Virus record (IMG/VR): IMGVR_UViG_3300044814_000012
Location: 1 to 45,941 of that record
From: a virus
Length of the DNA: 45,941 bases
Strand: one strand, 5' to 3'
Position 1 is the first letter of the stretch; each line of letters opens with the position of its first letter. Both the position numbers and the translations under genes were made by a program. Of this stretch, positions 6,675-41,372 are shown in pieces. The notes below the pieces were generated by a model. The model did not search any database. It was not told the DNA's origin and saw nothing but the letters and a program-made list of their open reading frames with translations.

Positions 6675-7147
6675 GCATGAAATTTTCCGCGAGCACTATT
6701 GCTCGCTTTTTTCTATACGTACGCGAGGCAGCAGGGCCGCAGAATACTGGCAGTAGAGTCGAAGCCATCCAAAGGTGGAGCGGCGGCAGCAAGGGCGACA
6801 GCTACTGCTGCGAGTTCGCCACAATGATTCTCGACATCTGCTTTCAGGGTGAGGCACCAGTCCCACGATTGCAGGCGTGCCAGGATGTCTACGAGCTGGC
6901 GAAGAAGAACGGTTGGGTCAGGGGTGTGTCGGACGACATAAACATTGACGACCTCTTTCTCTACGTGAACTCCAACGACCACGCTCATCACATCGGCATC
7001 GTCACTGGAATCAAGAAGACAGCCGGCAAAATCACCAGCGTAACAGGAATAGCAGGCAACACGTCAGCCGATGGCACGAGTTCAAACGGAACCGGCGTCT
7101 TCGAGCACGACATCTTCGCTACGGTGTTCGTCGCCTACCCACGATGA
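6671..7147 (+). CDS. CHAP-like peptidoglycan hydrolase in the gp3.5 position
   Basis: A 158-residue protein. SYCCEFATMIL supplies the nucleophilic Cys of a CHAP/NlpC-type amidase or endopeptidase, HHIGIVTGI the His and IAGNTSADG the polar third residue. It is probably the endolysin, cleaving peptidoglycan at lysis. It occupies the place of the T7 lysozyme gene (3.5) but is a different fold, so inhibition of the RNA polymerase, as done by T7 lysozyme, cannot be assumed. The ATG overlaps the previous stop (ATGA); a second ATG is at 6677. Codons 7-14 encode a terminator hairpin. Confidence 0.8.
   Translation: MSMKFSASTIARFFLYVREAAGPQNTGSRVEAIQRWSGGSKGDSYCCEFATMILDICFQGEAPVPRLQACQDVYELAKKNGWVRGVSDDINIDDLFLYVNSNDHAHHIGIVTGIKKTAGKITSVTGIAGNTSADGTSSNGTGVFEHDIFATVFVAYPR
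6689..6712 (+). terminator. Intrinsic terminator inside the hydrolase gene
   Basis: GCGAGCA pairs perfectly with TGCTCGC around the loop CTAT, followed at once by six T. This is a textbook rho-independent terminator for host RNA polymerase, located 18 bases into the hydrolase coding sequence. It may keep host polymerase from reading into lysis and replication genes, while phage polymerase passes at least partly. Confidence 0.75.
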
Positions 7148-8154
7148 CGGTCGGCAGTCTGTTCGCAGGTATCGGCGGCTTCGACTTGGCAGCTAGCTGG
7201 GTCGGATGGAAGACAGCCTGGTACAGCGAGATCGAACCATACGCCTGCGCTGTAATGCGAAAGCGTTACCCGCAAGCAATCAATCACGGAGACATAACTG
7301 CAATCGACGGACGCACCATTGAACCTGTTGACATCTTGTGCGGGGGCTTCCCCTGTCAGGACATCAGTACCGCAGGAAAGAACGCCGGAATCGGAGGCAG
7401 TCGCTCCGGTCTCTGGAAACAGTACGCTCGGCTCATCAAAGAAATCTCGCCGCGCTTCGTCGTCATCGAAAACGTCAGCGTCCTTCGCTCTCGCGGACTG
7501 GACACGGTGTTACAAGACCTCGATGAGATCGGGTACGATGCGGAATGGAATTGTATTCCCGCTTCCTACGTTGGCGCCCCTCACCAAAGGGACCGCATCT
7601 GGATTGTGGCCTACCCCAACAGCAAACCTGTCGAACACTTGCTCGGTGGATGCAGCGCTGAACGAAGCGAAGAGACTACACCCGCGAGGCCAGTGGACGT
7701 TGATGACGCAAGTAGCAGCGCATCACGTACACGGCGACAGAATGTGGCCGACGCCTACGTCAACGATGGGGAACGACGGACCAGACAGGGAGCTTACGGC
7801 CAAGGACGGTGGAGCAGTGCAACCCAACCAGAGAATGTACGACAAGGGCGGCAACCACGTTCCGATAACGCTGGACCGTGCAGTCCGTTGGTGGCCGACA
7901 GCAGCAGCTCGCGATTGGAAGGACACACCTGGAATGGTGGCGCAGCGGAAGGACGGTCGCTCCCGATTAGATCAACTGGCTCGTGTGGTTTACCACAGGG
8001 AGCAGACGGTGAAGGGTGGTGGCAATCTGAACCCAACGTGGGTCGAGTGGCTAATGGGGTTCCCTCTAGGGTGGACCGAATTAAGTGCCTCGGAAACGCC
8101 ATCGTCCCGCAAGTCGCGTACGAAATCTTCCGCGCCATTGAAAGGCATGGATGA
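7144..8154 (+). CDS. dcm: DNA cytosine-5 methyltransferase
   Basis: A 336-residue C5 methyltransferase. Motif I is SLFAGIGGFDLA (SAM binding). Motif IV is GGFPCQDIS near residue 68, with the catalytic Cys. Motif VI is VIENV near 109. Motif VIII is HQRDRIWIVA. Motifs IX-X are RVDRIKCLGNAIVPQ at the end. The region between about 165 and 300 is the target-recognition part and is low in hydrophobics. It probably protects phage DNA from host restriction. It overlaps the hydrolase and the primase-helicase by ATGA on both sides. A second long frame runs through most of it (see 7319-8164). Confidence 0.93.
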   Translation: MTVGSLFAGIGGFDLAASWVGWKTAWYSEIEPYACAVMRKRYPQAINHGDITAIDGRTIEPVDILCGGFPCQDISTAGKNAGIGGSRSGLWKQYARLIKEISPRFVVIENVSVLRSRGLDTVLQDLDEIGYDAEWNCIPASYVGAPHQRDRIWIVAYPNSKPVEHLLGGCSAERSEETTPARPVDVDDASSSASRTRRQNVADAYVNDGERRTRQGAYGQGRWSSATQPENVRQGRQPRSDNAGPCSPLVADSSSSRLEGHTWNGGAAEGRSLPIRSTGSCGLPQGADGEGWWQSEPNVGRVANGVPSRVDRIKCLGNAIVPQVAYEIFRAIERHG

Positions 8155-8164
8155 TCGAGAATGA
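7319..8164 (+). other. Long overlapping frame within the methyltransferase gene
   Basis: A 281-codon stop-free frame, one base off the methyltransferase, with a TTG start and no ribosome binding site. Its translation contains segments I recognise from many annotated phage proteins: RSGTMRNGIVFPLPTLAP, LWPTPTA, AARDWKDTPGM and NPTWVEWLMGFPLGWT. Each lies opposite a conserved methyltransferase motif (for example WPTP opposite VADA), so the apparent conservation may be a passive shadow. It is listed as a possible dual-coding gene, not as an established one. Confidence 0.3.
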
Positions 8165-9830
8165 AAGCGAGTTCCTTCGACATATCGCGTGCCCTAATTG
8201 CAACTCTTCGGACGCTAATAGCGAGTACACCGACGGACACACCCATTGTTTCGGATGCGGTGCTCATACAGGCGCAACAGGAGAGGCATCAGCACGACCC
8301 GCTGTACTTCGTAAAGCAGGGCTGATCGAGGGCACAGTTGAACCGCTGATCTCTCGCGGCATCACACAGGATACTTGTCGTCACTTCGGATACATGAAGG
8401 GCACGTACAAGAATCGTCCTGTGCAGATAGCTCCGTACTTCGACGCTGACGGCAACATGGTCGCGCAGAAGATTCGGTTCGGTGACAAGACGTTCGCGTG
8501 GCTAGGCGACCCAGCGACAGCGCTACCGTTCGGAGCCACCAAGTTTCCAAAGGTAGGCAGGAAGATCGTCGTCACTGAAGGTGAGATCGACGCGCTGGCC
8601 ATGAGCCAGGCGCAAGGCAATCAGTGGCCGACAGTCTCCATCGCCTGCGGTGCAGATCAGCCGACAGATCGAGATGGCAACGCCATGCCGATGAACAAGA
8701 TCAGGAAATACGCAGCGAAGCATCGCGATTACTTCATCAAGTTCGAGACTGTCTGCATCATGTTCGACAACGATGCTCAAGGCAGGGAGTCCGCGAAAGT
8801 CTTTGCGGAAGTCATCGGCTCCAGAGCGCGCATCGCGGAGCTGAGCGAGCACGACGCAGGTGCGATGCTGCTGGCCGGCAAGACTGACCAGCTAATCAGT
8901 GCGATGTGGAATGCTGTGCCTCACAGACCAGCAGGCATCGTCGAGTTGAGTTCGCTCCGCAACGCTGTCATGGAAGGAATCAAGTGGGGCATCTCGTGGC
9001 CGTGGGAGACGCTGACAAAGCTCACCTATGGTATACGAACTGGCGAAGTGTATTGCATCGGCGCCGGCACAGGCACAGGGAAGACGGACGTATTCACGCA
9101 GACGATAGATCATCTCGTGCGCGTCCACAACAGACCTGTAGCTGCGTTCATGCTGGAGCAGGCTCCACGCGAGTCGGCCATCCGCATCGCTGGCAAGTTC
9201 GCCAAGCAGCGCTACCACGTACCTGACGCAGGCTGGACTCAGGAAGAGTTCGAGCAGACGTGGGACTCGCTAGAGAAATCTGGCAAGGTGTTCCTCTACG
9301 ACAGCTTCGGTCAGAACGACTACGACATCATCGAGGACCGCATCAGGTTCCTCGCGCAAGGCGAAGACGTGAAGGACTTCTTCATCGACAACCTGACTGC
9401 GCTGGCCGCATGGCAGGACGATGAGCGCAAGGCGCTGGAAGTAATCATGTCGCGCATTGGTGCGCTCGTGAAGGAACTGGACATCACGATCTATCTCATC
9501 TCCCACTTGGCTACGCCTGAAGGCAAGCCGCACGAGGAAGGTGGGCGCGTAATGGTTCGACACCTGAAGGGCAGCAGGAGCATTGGCTTCTGGTGTCACT
9601 TCATCTTCGGACTTGAACGCGATCAACAACACGAAGACTTAACGACACGACTGACCACCACGTTCCGCGTGCTGAAGGACAGGTACACAGGGCAGGCAAC
9701 AGGTCAGACGTTCTTGATGCGATACGACCAACAGACGGGAATGCTGAACGAAGCAGAGCCAGCAGTTCCCAGCGGCGAAGCATACGGCTTCACCGATACA
9801 ACTAACGGAGATAAACCCTCCGACTTCTAA
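8151..9830 (+). CDS. 4: DNA primase-helicase (gp4)
   Basis: A 559-residue protein (T7 gp4A: 566) that unwinds DNA at the fork and makes primers. The N-terminal zinc ribbon has CPNC at residues 14-17 and CFGC at 33-36. The TOPRIM primase core contains EGEIDALAMS near 143 and IMFDNDAQGRES near 203. The RecA-like helicase has Walker A GAGTGTGKT near 304, Walker B FFIDNLTAL, and later ISHLATPEG and HLKGSRSIGFW. The C-terminus is acidic and ends in SDF, as needed to contact DNA polymerase. Start and stop neighbours overlap or abut, so it is in one operon with its neighbours. Confidence 0.95.
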   Translation: MIENESEFLRHIACPNCNSSDANSEYTDGHTHCFGCGAHTGATGEASARPAVLRKAGLIEGTVEPLISRGITQDTCRHFGYMKGTYKNRPVQIAPYFDADGNMVAQKIRFGDKTFAWLGDPATALPFGATKFPKVGRKIVVTEGEIDALAMSQAQGNQWPTVSIACGADQPTDRDGNAMPMNKIRKYAAKHRDYFIKFETVCIMFDNDAQGRESAKVFAEVIGSRARIAELSEHDAGAMLLAGKTDQLISAMWNAVPHRPAGIVELSSLRNAVMEGIKWGISWPWETLTKLTYGIRTGEVYCIGAGTGTGKTDVFTQTIDHLVRVHNRPVAAFMLEQAPRESAIRIAGKFAKQRYHVPDAGWTQEEFEQTWDSLEKSGKVFLYDSFGQNDYDIIEDRIRFLAQGEDVKDFFIDNLTALAAWQDDERKALEVIMSRIGALVKELDITIYLISHLATPEGKPHEEGGRVMVRHLKGSRSIGFWCHFIFGLERDQQHEDLTTRLTTTFRVLKDRYTGQATGQTFLMRYDQQTGMLNEAEPAVPSGEAYGFTDTTNGDKPSDF

Positions 9831-40157: not shown

Positions 40158-41372
40158 GTGGGCAGAAAACCGAAGGACCAGCGCTCTCGCGGACAGATCA
40201 CCGAACGCGGCGACAGGAAGTATCTGGTGCGCGTGTACATCGGCAGGGACGCTTACGGCAAGCGGGATTACAAGAGTGCAGTCGTCAACGGAACCATCAG
40301 TCAGGCTCAGGCAAAGCTCACAGCGATGCTCGGTGACGTTGACACCGAAGACTTCATACCGCAGGCGAAGAAGCTGTTCGGAGACTTCATTGACTCTTGG
40401 CTCGTCAACACTGCTCCGATGCGCGTGACGGTCGGCACTGCGAAGGGCTACGGCGCCTGTCTCGCACGAGTGAAGGACACGCTCGGTAGCACGCGGCTCG
40501 ACAGAGTGTCACCGCAAGCGATTCAGCAGATGTACAAGGACATGGCTGACGACGATATGTCCACCACGTACATCGCGCTCACCCACACGCTGACCAAGAT
40601 GGTGCTTGAACAGGCCGTCGCATGGCGGCTTATCAAGCGGAACCCAGCGAAGGGCGCGACGATACCTGTTGGTGAAGAGAAGTCCGATGAAGACAAGGCG
40701 AACATGGCCTTCACGAAGGAAGAAGCTGACCTCTTTTTAGAGGCAGCAAAGAAAACACCACGCTACGCGATGTGGCTGACGTTTCTCGCGACGGGTCTCA
40801 GGCCGCAGGAGCTGTTCGCTCTCAAGTGGAGCGATCTCGAAACGAAAATGGTGAGAGTGCAGAAAGCTGACGGCTGGACTGAAGTTCCCACGTCATTCCT
40901 CAAGGTACAGCGCGCCATGAAGTCAGTCGGCGCCGGCAAGTACACCGTTGGTGTCCCGAAGACGAAGAAGGGTCGTCGCCAGGTGTCAATTCCCTCGACC
41001 TTGGTGGACGCGCTCAACGCTCACAGGCTCGCTCAGGTCAAACTCATCATGGCCGGTGGTCCCGACTTCGAGCGCAACGATCTGATCTTTCCCACAGCTC
41101 AGGGTCGTCACCTCTCGCACAAGAATGTGCGCCGTTCATTTCACGCGCTCTGCAAAGTAGCGAAGGTCAAGAAGATCAAACTGTACGGCCTCAGACACAC
41201 CCACGCTACTATACTGTTGGGCGCCGGCTGGCATCTGAAGATCGTGTCAGAACGCCTCGGTCACTCCAGCATCATGCTGACTGGTGACACCTACAGCCAT
41301 GTGCAGCCTGTCATGGAGCACGAGACAGCTCTGATGATCGAGCAACTGCTCCCGAAGGCGATAAAAGCATAG
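40158..41372 (+). CDS. int: Tyrosine integrase
   Basis: A 404-residue site-specific recombinase. The N-terminal ~60 residues (RGQITERGDRKYLVRVYIG) form an AP2-like arm-binding domain. A SAM-like core-binding domain follows (LFGDFIDSWL, YGACLARVKDTLG). The catalytic domain has the first Arg in TGLRPQELFALKW near 214, GLRHTHATILL with His and second Arg near 345, GHSS, and the nucleophilic Tyr in DTYSHV near 378. It would integrate and excise the phage at the adjacent attP. The start is GTG behind AGCTAACTAGGAGG. Its presence makes the phage temperate in potential. Confidence 0.95.
   Translation: MGRKPKDQRSRGQITERGDRKYLVRVYIGRDAYGKRDYKSAVVNGTISQAQAKLTAMLGDVDTEDFIPQAKKLFGDFIDSWLVNTAPMRVTVGTAKGYGACLARVKDTLGSTRLDRVSPQAIQQMYKDMADDDMSTTYIALTHTLTKMVLEQAVAWRLIKRNPAKGATIPVGEEKSDEDKANMAFTKEEADLFLEAAKKTPRYAMWLTFLATGLRPQELFALKWSDLETKMVRVQKADGWTEVPTSFLKVQRAMKSVGAGKYTVGVPKTKKGRRQVSIPSTLVDALNAHRLAQVKLIMAGGPDFERNDLIFPTAQGRHLSHKNVRRSFHALCKVAKVKKIKLYGLRHTHATILLGAGWHLKIVSERLGHSSIMLTGDTYSHVQPVMEHETALMIEQLLPKAIKA

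Follow-up and report, generated by a model that had tools for sequence, protein, structure and literature searches.

A second coding frame in the cytosine methyltransferase gene of a T7-like phage probably carries the recognition region of the same enzyme

The window analyzed here, a stretch of 45,941 nucleotides of viral DNA (IMG/VR record IMGVR_UViG_3300044814_000012), contains a C5-cytosine methyltransferase gene through which a second long open reading frame runs on the same strand. Such an arrangement raises the question of whether the second frame is a genuine overlapping gene or whether this frame and the database families resembling it are shadows of the methyltransferase. If the gene is genuine, one would like to know what its product contributes to the enzyme.

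The methyltransferase gene and its two frames

The gene set of the window is T7-like and comprises RNA polymerase, single-stranded DNA-binding protein, endonuclease I, primase-helicase, DNA polymerase, exonuclease, a head-tail connector and a T7-type terminase. A phage integrase gene (40158-41372; PF00589, E 3e-22) is present alongside the T7-like RNA polymerase and the replication genes, and this combination suggests a temperate T7-like phage. The methyltransferase gene (7144-8154, plus strand) is flanked by a gene with a weak CHAP match and by the primase-helicase gene. Its translation of 336 residues, called alpha here, matches the C5-cytosine methyltransferase family (PF00145, E 3e-53) and contains motifs I, IV (PCQ with the catalytic cysteine, 7351-7359), VI (ENV), VIII (QRDR) and X (LGN in LGNAIVPQ, 8089-8112, with the invariant residues G317 and N318) in a single open reading frame. 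The alignment of alpha with M.HhaI was limited to residues 5-164, which correspond to motifs I-VIII, and no motif IX of the NPxWVEWLMGFP type was found in alpha's own frame.

The second frame is the +1 frame of alpha. It is open from 7298 to 8164 (plus strand, stop codon at 8162-8164) and is kept stop-free by selection. The 281-codon frame of the original prediction proved to be real and corresponds to the ORF at 7319-8164 (plus strand, TTG start); the two frames overlap by about 840 bases. All motifs quoted earlier, including LWPTPTA and ARDWKD, were found in the translation of this frame, the putative product of which we call beta. Three repeats can be recognized in beta: LWPTPTA (7604-7624), which is homologous to the in-frame LLPTPAARDWK of relatives of the L105 type, MWPTPTS (7742-7762) and WWPTAAARDWKD (7889-7924), which includes ARDWKD. 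They are followed by a motif IX-like block, LNPTWVEWLMGFPLGWT (8027-8077). The original prediction also had these motifs recur in many annotated phage proteins, and this was borne out: the phrog_1008 profile matches beta over most of its length (E 9.9e-24, profile positions 38-295 of 329), and BLOOM_57 of Paenibacillus phage Bloom is annotated as a second CDS inside a methyltransferase gene. No Pfam match was obtained for beta. Since the +1 frame, and not alpha between motifs VIII and X, holds the putative recognition domain and motif IX, the gene departs from the monomeric form; it does not depart from the PF00145 family, because two-chain C5 members are known. On the minus strand, a 157-codon ORF with an ATG start (7794-8267) runs antisense to the end of the methyltransferase gene.

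Selection on the second frame

If beta were a passive shadow, the +1 ORF would have arisen by chance from the codon usage of the methyltransferase, and the families in the databases would be mis-annotated. This explanation needed testing because reading a methyltransferase motif in the +1 frame gives each of the quoted motifs (RNGIVFPLPTLAP from EWNCIPASYVGAP, LWPTPTA from IWIVAYPNS and NPTWVEWLMGFP from EPNVGRVANGVP). We therefore counted +1 stop codons in 84 viral homologues, nearly all of which had been fetched by similarity in the methyltransferase frame, plus a few phage records, and compared these numbers with those expected from synonymous-codon shuffles. From the N-terminus to motif IV, 165 stops were observed and 157 expected. 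Stop avoidance begins at motif IV: the observed/expected counts were 2/92 and 1/67 from motif IV to GYD, 0/32 from GYD to motif VIII and 2/89 from motif VIII to approximately motif IX, and after motif X stops were again frequent (152/102). Between motifs IV and IX the 84 homologues together have 5 stops against about 280 expected, and in two long segments the depletion reaches a z-score of about -11. No such depletion was seen in the ordinary C5 enzymes that served as clean negative controls, such as L141, L150, L151, L154 and the dcm gene of an E. coli 4.2-kb plasmid (L290). Three further candidates for true monomers (L105, L109 and L117) were rejected as controls; they are split-repeat forms, the +1 frame of which still carries the N-terminal part and the first repeat.

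Substitutions between close relatives tell in which frame a region evolves. In close viral pairs, which were few and partly related, the shares of substitutions at alpha codon positions 1/2/3 were 0.16/0.09/0.75 in the N-terminal control region and 0.74/0.11/0.15 in the variable region (7621-8022 in the window), and position 1 of alpha is the wobble position of beta. Summed over independent pairs that are arranged like the window (type A, defined below), the variable region gave 185/56/53 substitutions. Overall, 63-74% of the substitutions between motifs VIII and IX fell on alpha codon position 1, which means that the methyltransferase frame is the passenger there. The variable region would accordingly hold the target-recognition region in beta and an open linker without constraint in alpha. 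When the repeats lie in the alpha frame, as in the type C pairs L214/L236, L105/L117, L211/L213 and L109/L210, the sums were 79/56/137; the pattern reverts and therefore moves with the module.

Upstream of the variable region both readings appear to be constrained. Synonymous diversity of alpha among the homologues is about 0.84-1.0 up to residue 95 and mostly 0.4-0.8 from residue 97 onward. This marks a doubly coding stretch (7432-7596) that covers alpha residues 97-151, up to QRDR of motif VIII, and the conserved N-terminal part of beta, SGTMRNGIVFPLPTLAPLT. At alpha Val108 the third base is invariant across the homologues, and here the +1 frame needs TGG (Trp).

For the gene of this phage itself, only 0.2% of the synonymous shuffles of the methyltransferase left the +1 stretch free of stops (mean 4.07 stops). 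When we scored the +1 product of the window against a family HMM built from other loci only, 246.6 bits were obtained, and 1000 alpha-synonymous shuffles gave a mean of 94.7 and a maximum of 138.4 bits. The variable part alone scored 103.1 bits (maximum of 300 shuffles, 31.4). The N-terminal part of beta scored 61.2 bits, below the best shuffle (63.9), and for this reason it is not separately proven in this phage.

Two observations speak for the shadow. A shuffled gene already reaches about 95 bits against the family, so that motif similarity alone is no proof, as a passive shadow of a conserved methyltransferase scores this much. Moreover, annotations are often confused: in Acidovorax phage Alfacinha3, Cr-LKS3 and Cy-LDV1 (L004:2027-3193, L007:1632-2369 and L008:2130-2684) the CDS annotated as methyltransferase is the beta frame, and the catalytic chain in the other frame carries no annotation. 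However, the strong stop depletion with clean controls, the substitutions of the variable part, which follow the +1 frame and not the methyltransferase frame, and the score of the real window far outside the shuffled range are at odds with it, and the frequent stops that the original prediction expected of a shadow are nearly absent across the homologues. These data confirm that the +1 frame is a genuine coding frame, and they show both frames to be under selection. As an account of the family as a whole, the shadow is refuted by this comparative evidence, and we regard it as extremely improbable. Of the two options originally offered, the genuine overlapping gene was thus borne out.

Identity of the second product

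The beta consensus reads ...SSWRTSQ...FSxTWPRSGMMRNG...LxPL...SGLWPTPxA...WPTPxA...PTPxxxD...GxLNPTWVEWLMGFPxGWTDL. In a number of relatives, LWPTPTARDWK repeats and NPTWVEWLMGFP occur in the methyltransferase's own frame ahead of motif X, and they can therefore be read as a target-recognition region with motif IX. LNPxWVEWLMG[FY]P lies in the methyltransferase frame ahead of motif X in L071, which has LNPNWVEWLMGFPVGWT in that frame, in L075 and in a Candidatus Megaera plasmid (L291). In L105, L210-L220 and mycobacteriophage ShiLan gp70 (L208), the later repeats of the LLPTPxARDWK type, motif IX and motif X are all in the methyltransferase frame, and the +1 frame ends after the first one or two repeats. 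The in-frame repeat region of L105 matched about 50 peptides read in the +1 frame elsewhere among the loci (best E 2e-19; 6e-14 for phage L076); among methyltransferase-frame peptides it matched only its own orthologues and L099, and a wider class search with L105 yielded no further relatives at a strict cut-off. L099 (Saccharothrix) is possibly a decayed copy: its repeats pass from one frame to the other partway through, and neither motif IX nor motif X is in frame before the ORF ends. When profiles were compared with each other, the beta profile matched the alpha-frame profile with E 7.7e-9 over the repeats and the block before motif X. Taken together, these alignments show homology of the beta repeats and the IX block to in-frame methyltransferase segments of relatives. 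By this homology and by its position between motifs VIII and X, beta most likely represents the enzyme's own target-recognition region together with motif IX, and its identity can be named with fair confidence.

Structure prediction was less informative. AlphaFold modeling of beta alone with 72 homologues gave a mean pLDDT of 57 and no usable fold, and the beta profile had no match among PDB sequences at E<=1. For the L105 relative, the core and motifs IX and X were modeled confidently and the repeat region scored below 50; Foldseek with this model retrieved M.HhaI and other C5 enzymes, the best of which superposed over about 165 residues.

Well over a hundred related genes of phages and bacteria share the two-frame arrangement, and the position at which the frame switches differs among them (before motif X, before motif IX, within the repeats or after motif X). 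In a regular-expression scan of all loci, which left 33 loci untyped and included near-duplicates, so that the counts are not independent events, 130 loci were of type A (IX in +1, X in alpha), to which the window belongs, 38 of type B (repeats in +1, IX and X in alpha), 12 of type C (repeats split between the frames) and 11 of type D (IX and X both in +1). Type D originally comprised 14 loci; L034, L042 and L043 were rejected as artefacts of the expression, since their alpha ORFs reach motif X. L225 resembles type D, beside these 11. In loci of this kind (L225, L227, L240, L249, L256-L259, L262, L267, L095, L148) the methyltransferase frame stops soon after motif VIII and the repeats, IX and X continue in the +1 frame, which gives overlapping genes with a split like that of M.AquI. 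In Streptomyces phage Raleigh (L209:1411-2970), the methyltransferase has an insertion of about 80 residues after PCQ with a Cys/His cluster, CGNCRWGDHDHATC.

Taking the beta protein as fixed, we would expect 267 stops in the alpha frame from motif VIII to motif IX and saw none, but these segments had been cut from open alpha ORFs. A comparison of the switch types is the fairer test, and here we found no alpha-frame stop in 14,978 codons of type A and 70 stops in about 2,780 codons of type D (artefacts removed). Alpha is thus open exactly when it has to reach motif X. This fits two cooperating chains and counts against frameshifting as the main mechanism.

Because synonymous constraint sets in at alpha residue 97, translation of beta should begin upstream of this residue and before motif VIII. 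Across the homologues, start codons occur more often than expected just ahead of motif IV (z 4.6 for ATG, 3.6 for ATG with a Shine-Dalgarno sequence). In the window, TTG 7319 and TTG 7328 (7319-7330, plus strand) are the candidate starts; near motif IV there is no other start and no obvious ribosome-binding site for beta. The ORF of the original prediction stands, but its start at TTG 7319 is a candidate only, as neither TTG has a clear Shine-Dalgarno sequence. In-frame ATG codons of beta occur in the window only at 7523 and 7538, downstream of both TTGs. L001 has no start codon upstream of motif IV; as read from its sequence, a TTG further inside the gene is preceded at six bases by AAAGGAG. 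A single start for all homologues at the ATG of SG[MT][MT]RNG was rejected, as +1 constraint begins upstream of it. At the alpha GYD codons (7531-7539), the combination TAC-GAC is avoided across the homologues (1/71, with about 5 expected from the margins), so that an ATG is nearly always kept at one of two adjacent beta positions. This ATG may be a second internal start that gives a shorter product.

A ribosome translating alpha might alternatively slip into the +1 frame after motif VIII and produce one chain with motifs I-VIII, the recognition region and motif IX. Such programmed frameshifting would account for the missing ribosome-binding site of beta in the window, and the +1 frame is indeed open continuously from before motif VIII. 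However, +1 constraint starts about 50 codons before motif VIII, within catalytic motifs that a frameshift product would not read in +1, and type A loci would need a second shift to reach motif X. When the openness of alpha wherever it carries motif X and the enrichment of starts with Shine-Dalgarno sequences upstream of motif IV are considered as well, frameshifting appears unlikely. It is also conceivable that beta is a real overlapping gene with a separate job, such as anti-restriction or regulation, and not a methyltransferase subunit; its poor structural model and the lack of a Pfam match agree with this. We consider this idea very unlikely, because in relatives the repeats and the IX block sit in the alpha frame before motif X and because the frame boundary moves freely; only among the parts of a single enzyme would one expect this.

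Proposed mechanism and relation to known enzymes

We consider it highly probable that the overlapping frames of this gene encode the two chains of a single C5-cytosine methyltransferase, which work like M.EcoHK31I. In the mechanism that we infer, alpha (7144-8154) would be the catalytic core with motifs I-VIII and X and would be responsible for cofactor binding and catalysis; the sequence of its linker between VIII and X would hardly matter as long as it stays open. Beta would be translated in the +1 frame from an independent start inside the alpha gene, upstream of alpha residue 97 and possibly at one of the candidate codons named above, and would supply in trans the tandem x[L/W]PTPxA...DWK recognition units and motif IX (LNPTWVEWLMGFP). 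The small domain of M.HhaI and M.HaeIII is made up of the variable region and motif IX (PMC3404938), and efficient complementation is seen when C5 enzymes are divided between motif VIII and the recognition domain (PMC5944983). The two chains may likewise assemble into a heterodimer with methylation activity, in which the beta region would stand in for the small domain located between VIII and X in monomeric enzymes. Phage DNA would thereby be protected from host restriction, a role that phage methyltransferases are thought to have (discussed in PMC9957025).

A broader reading goes further, and we lean toward it with some reserve. Here, the modules of one enzyme would be shared over two overlapping frames with a switch point that moves in evolution; specificity would evolve in the +1 frame, alpha would carry a merely open out-of-frame linker, and the N-terminal part of beta would be overprinted on the catalytic core. 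This would be the usual phage form of this methyltransferase group, unnoticed as annotation is mostly single-frame. If true, many phage "DNA methyltransferase" annotations cover one of two chains, and the region usually read as recognition domain is in the wrong frame, so that specificity predictions from it are meaningless. It would also be a long and widespread same-strand overlap with functions identified for both products, and the EcoHK31I arrangement would become testable in many systems. Relatives with the same module in the other frame provide built-in controls, and the arrangement would point to a way in which a domain could move from one frame to another and remain functional. The distribution is broader and odder than the known two-chain examples suggest. 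Among open-licence papers, where absence counts for little, we found none describing a phage-wide two-frame pattern.

Among annotated proteins, phrog_1008 and BLOOM_57 ("DNA methyltransferase") belong to the same +1-frame protein family, but their annotation is silent on the overlap and on the relation to the catalytic chain. Out-of-frame HNH endonucleases, the "ShiLan domain", have been described in actinophage methylases (PMC11855218). They too are proteins encoded out of frame within a phage methylase gene; however, that domain is a sporadic, selfish mobile insertion in a different gene (ShiLan gp65) and not a part of the enzyme.

M.EaeI, like M.EcoHK31I, is a YGGCCR-specific C5-methyltransferase made of two polypeptides. 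The small chain of M.EcoHK31I is reportedly read in another frame inside the gene of the large chain, and the second frame inside the methyltransferase gene of the window matches this arrangement. The large chain of that enzyme carries motifs I-VIII and X and the small chain motif IX, and M.AquI is another natural two-chain C5 enzyme (PMC3404938). The window appears to encode the same division, with I-VIII and X in the large chain and IX in the second frame. In contrast, the recognition domain of M.EcoHK31I was predicted in the large chain (PMC3404938), whereas in the window the region between VIII and IX is selected in the frame of the small chain, and M.EcoHK31I belongs to a restriction-modification system, whereas the present gene lies in a phage replication module. 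We therefore class the window as working like M.EcoHK31I and not as a member of its type, because the placement of the recognition domain differs, although by prediction only, and because the two were compared by description. M.AquI (CYCGRG, two subunits) is more closely approached by type D relatives (e.g. L227 and L240), which have I-VIII on one chain and the repeats, IX and X on the other. Its combination of IX and X on the small subunit is not found in the window, where motif X lies in the alpha frame and about 840 bases are read in both frames.
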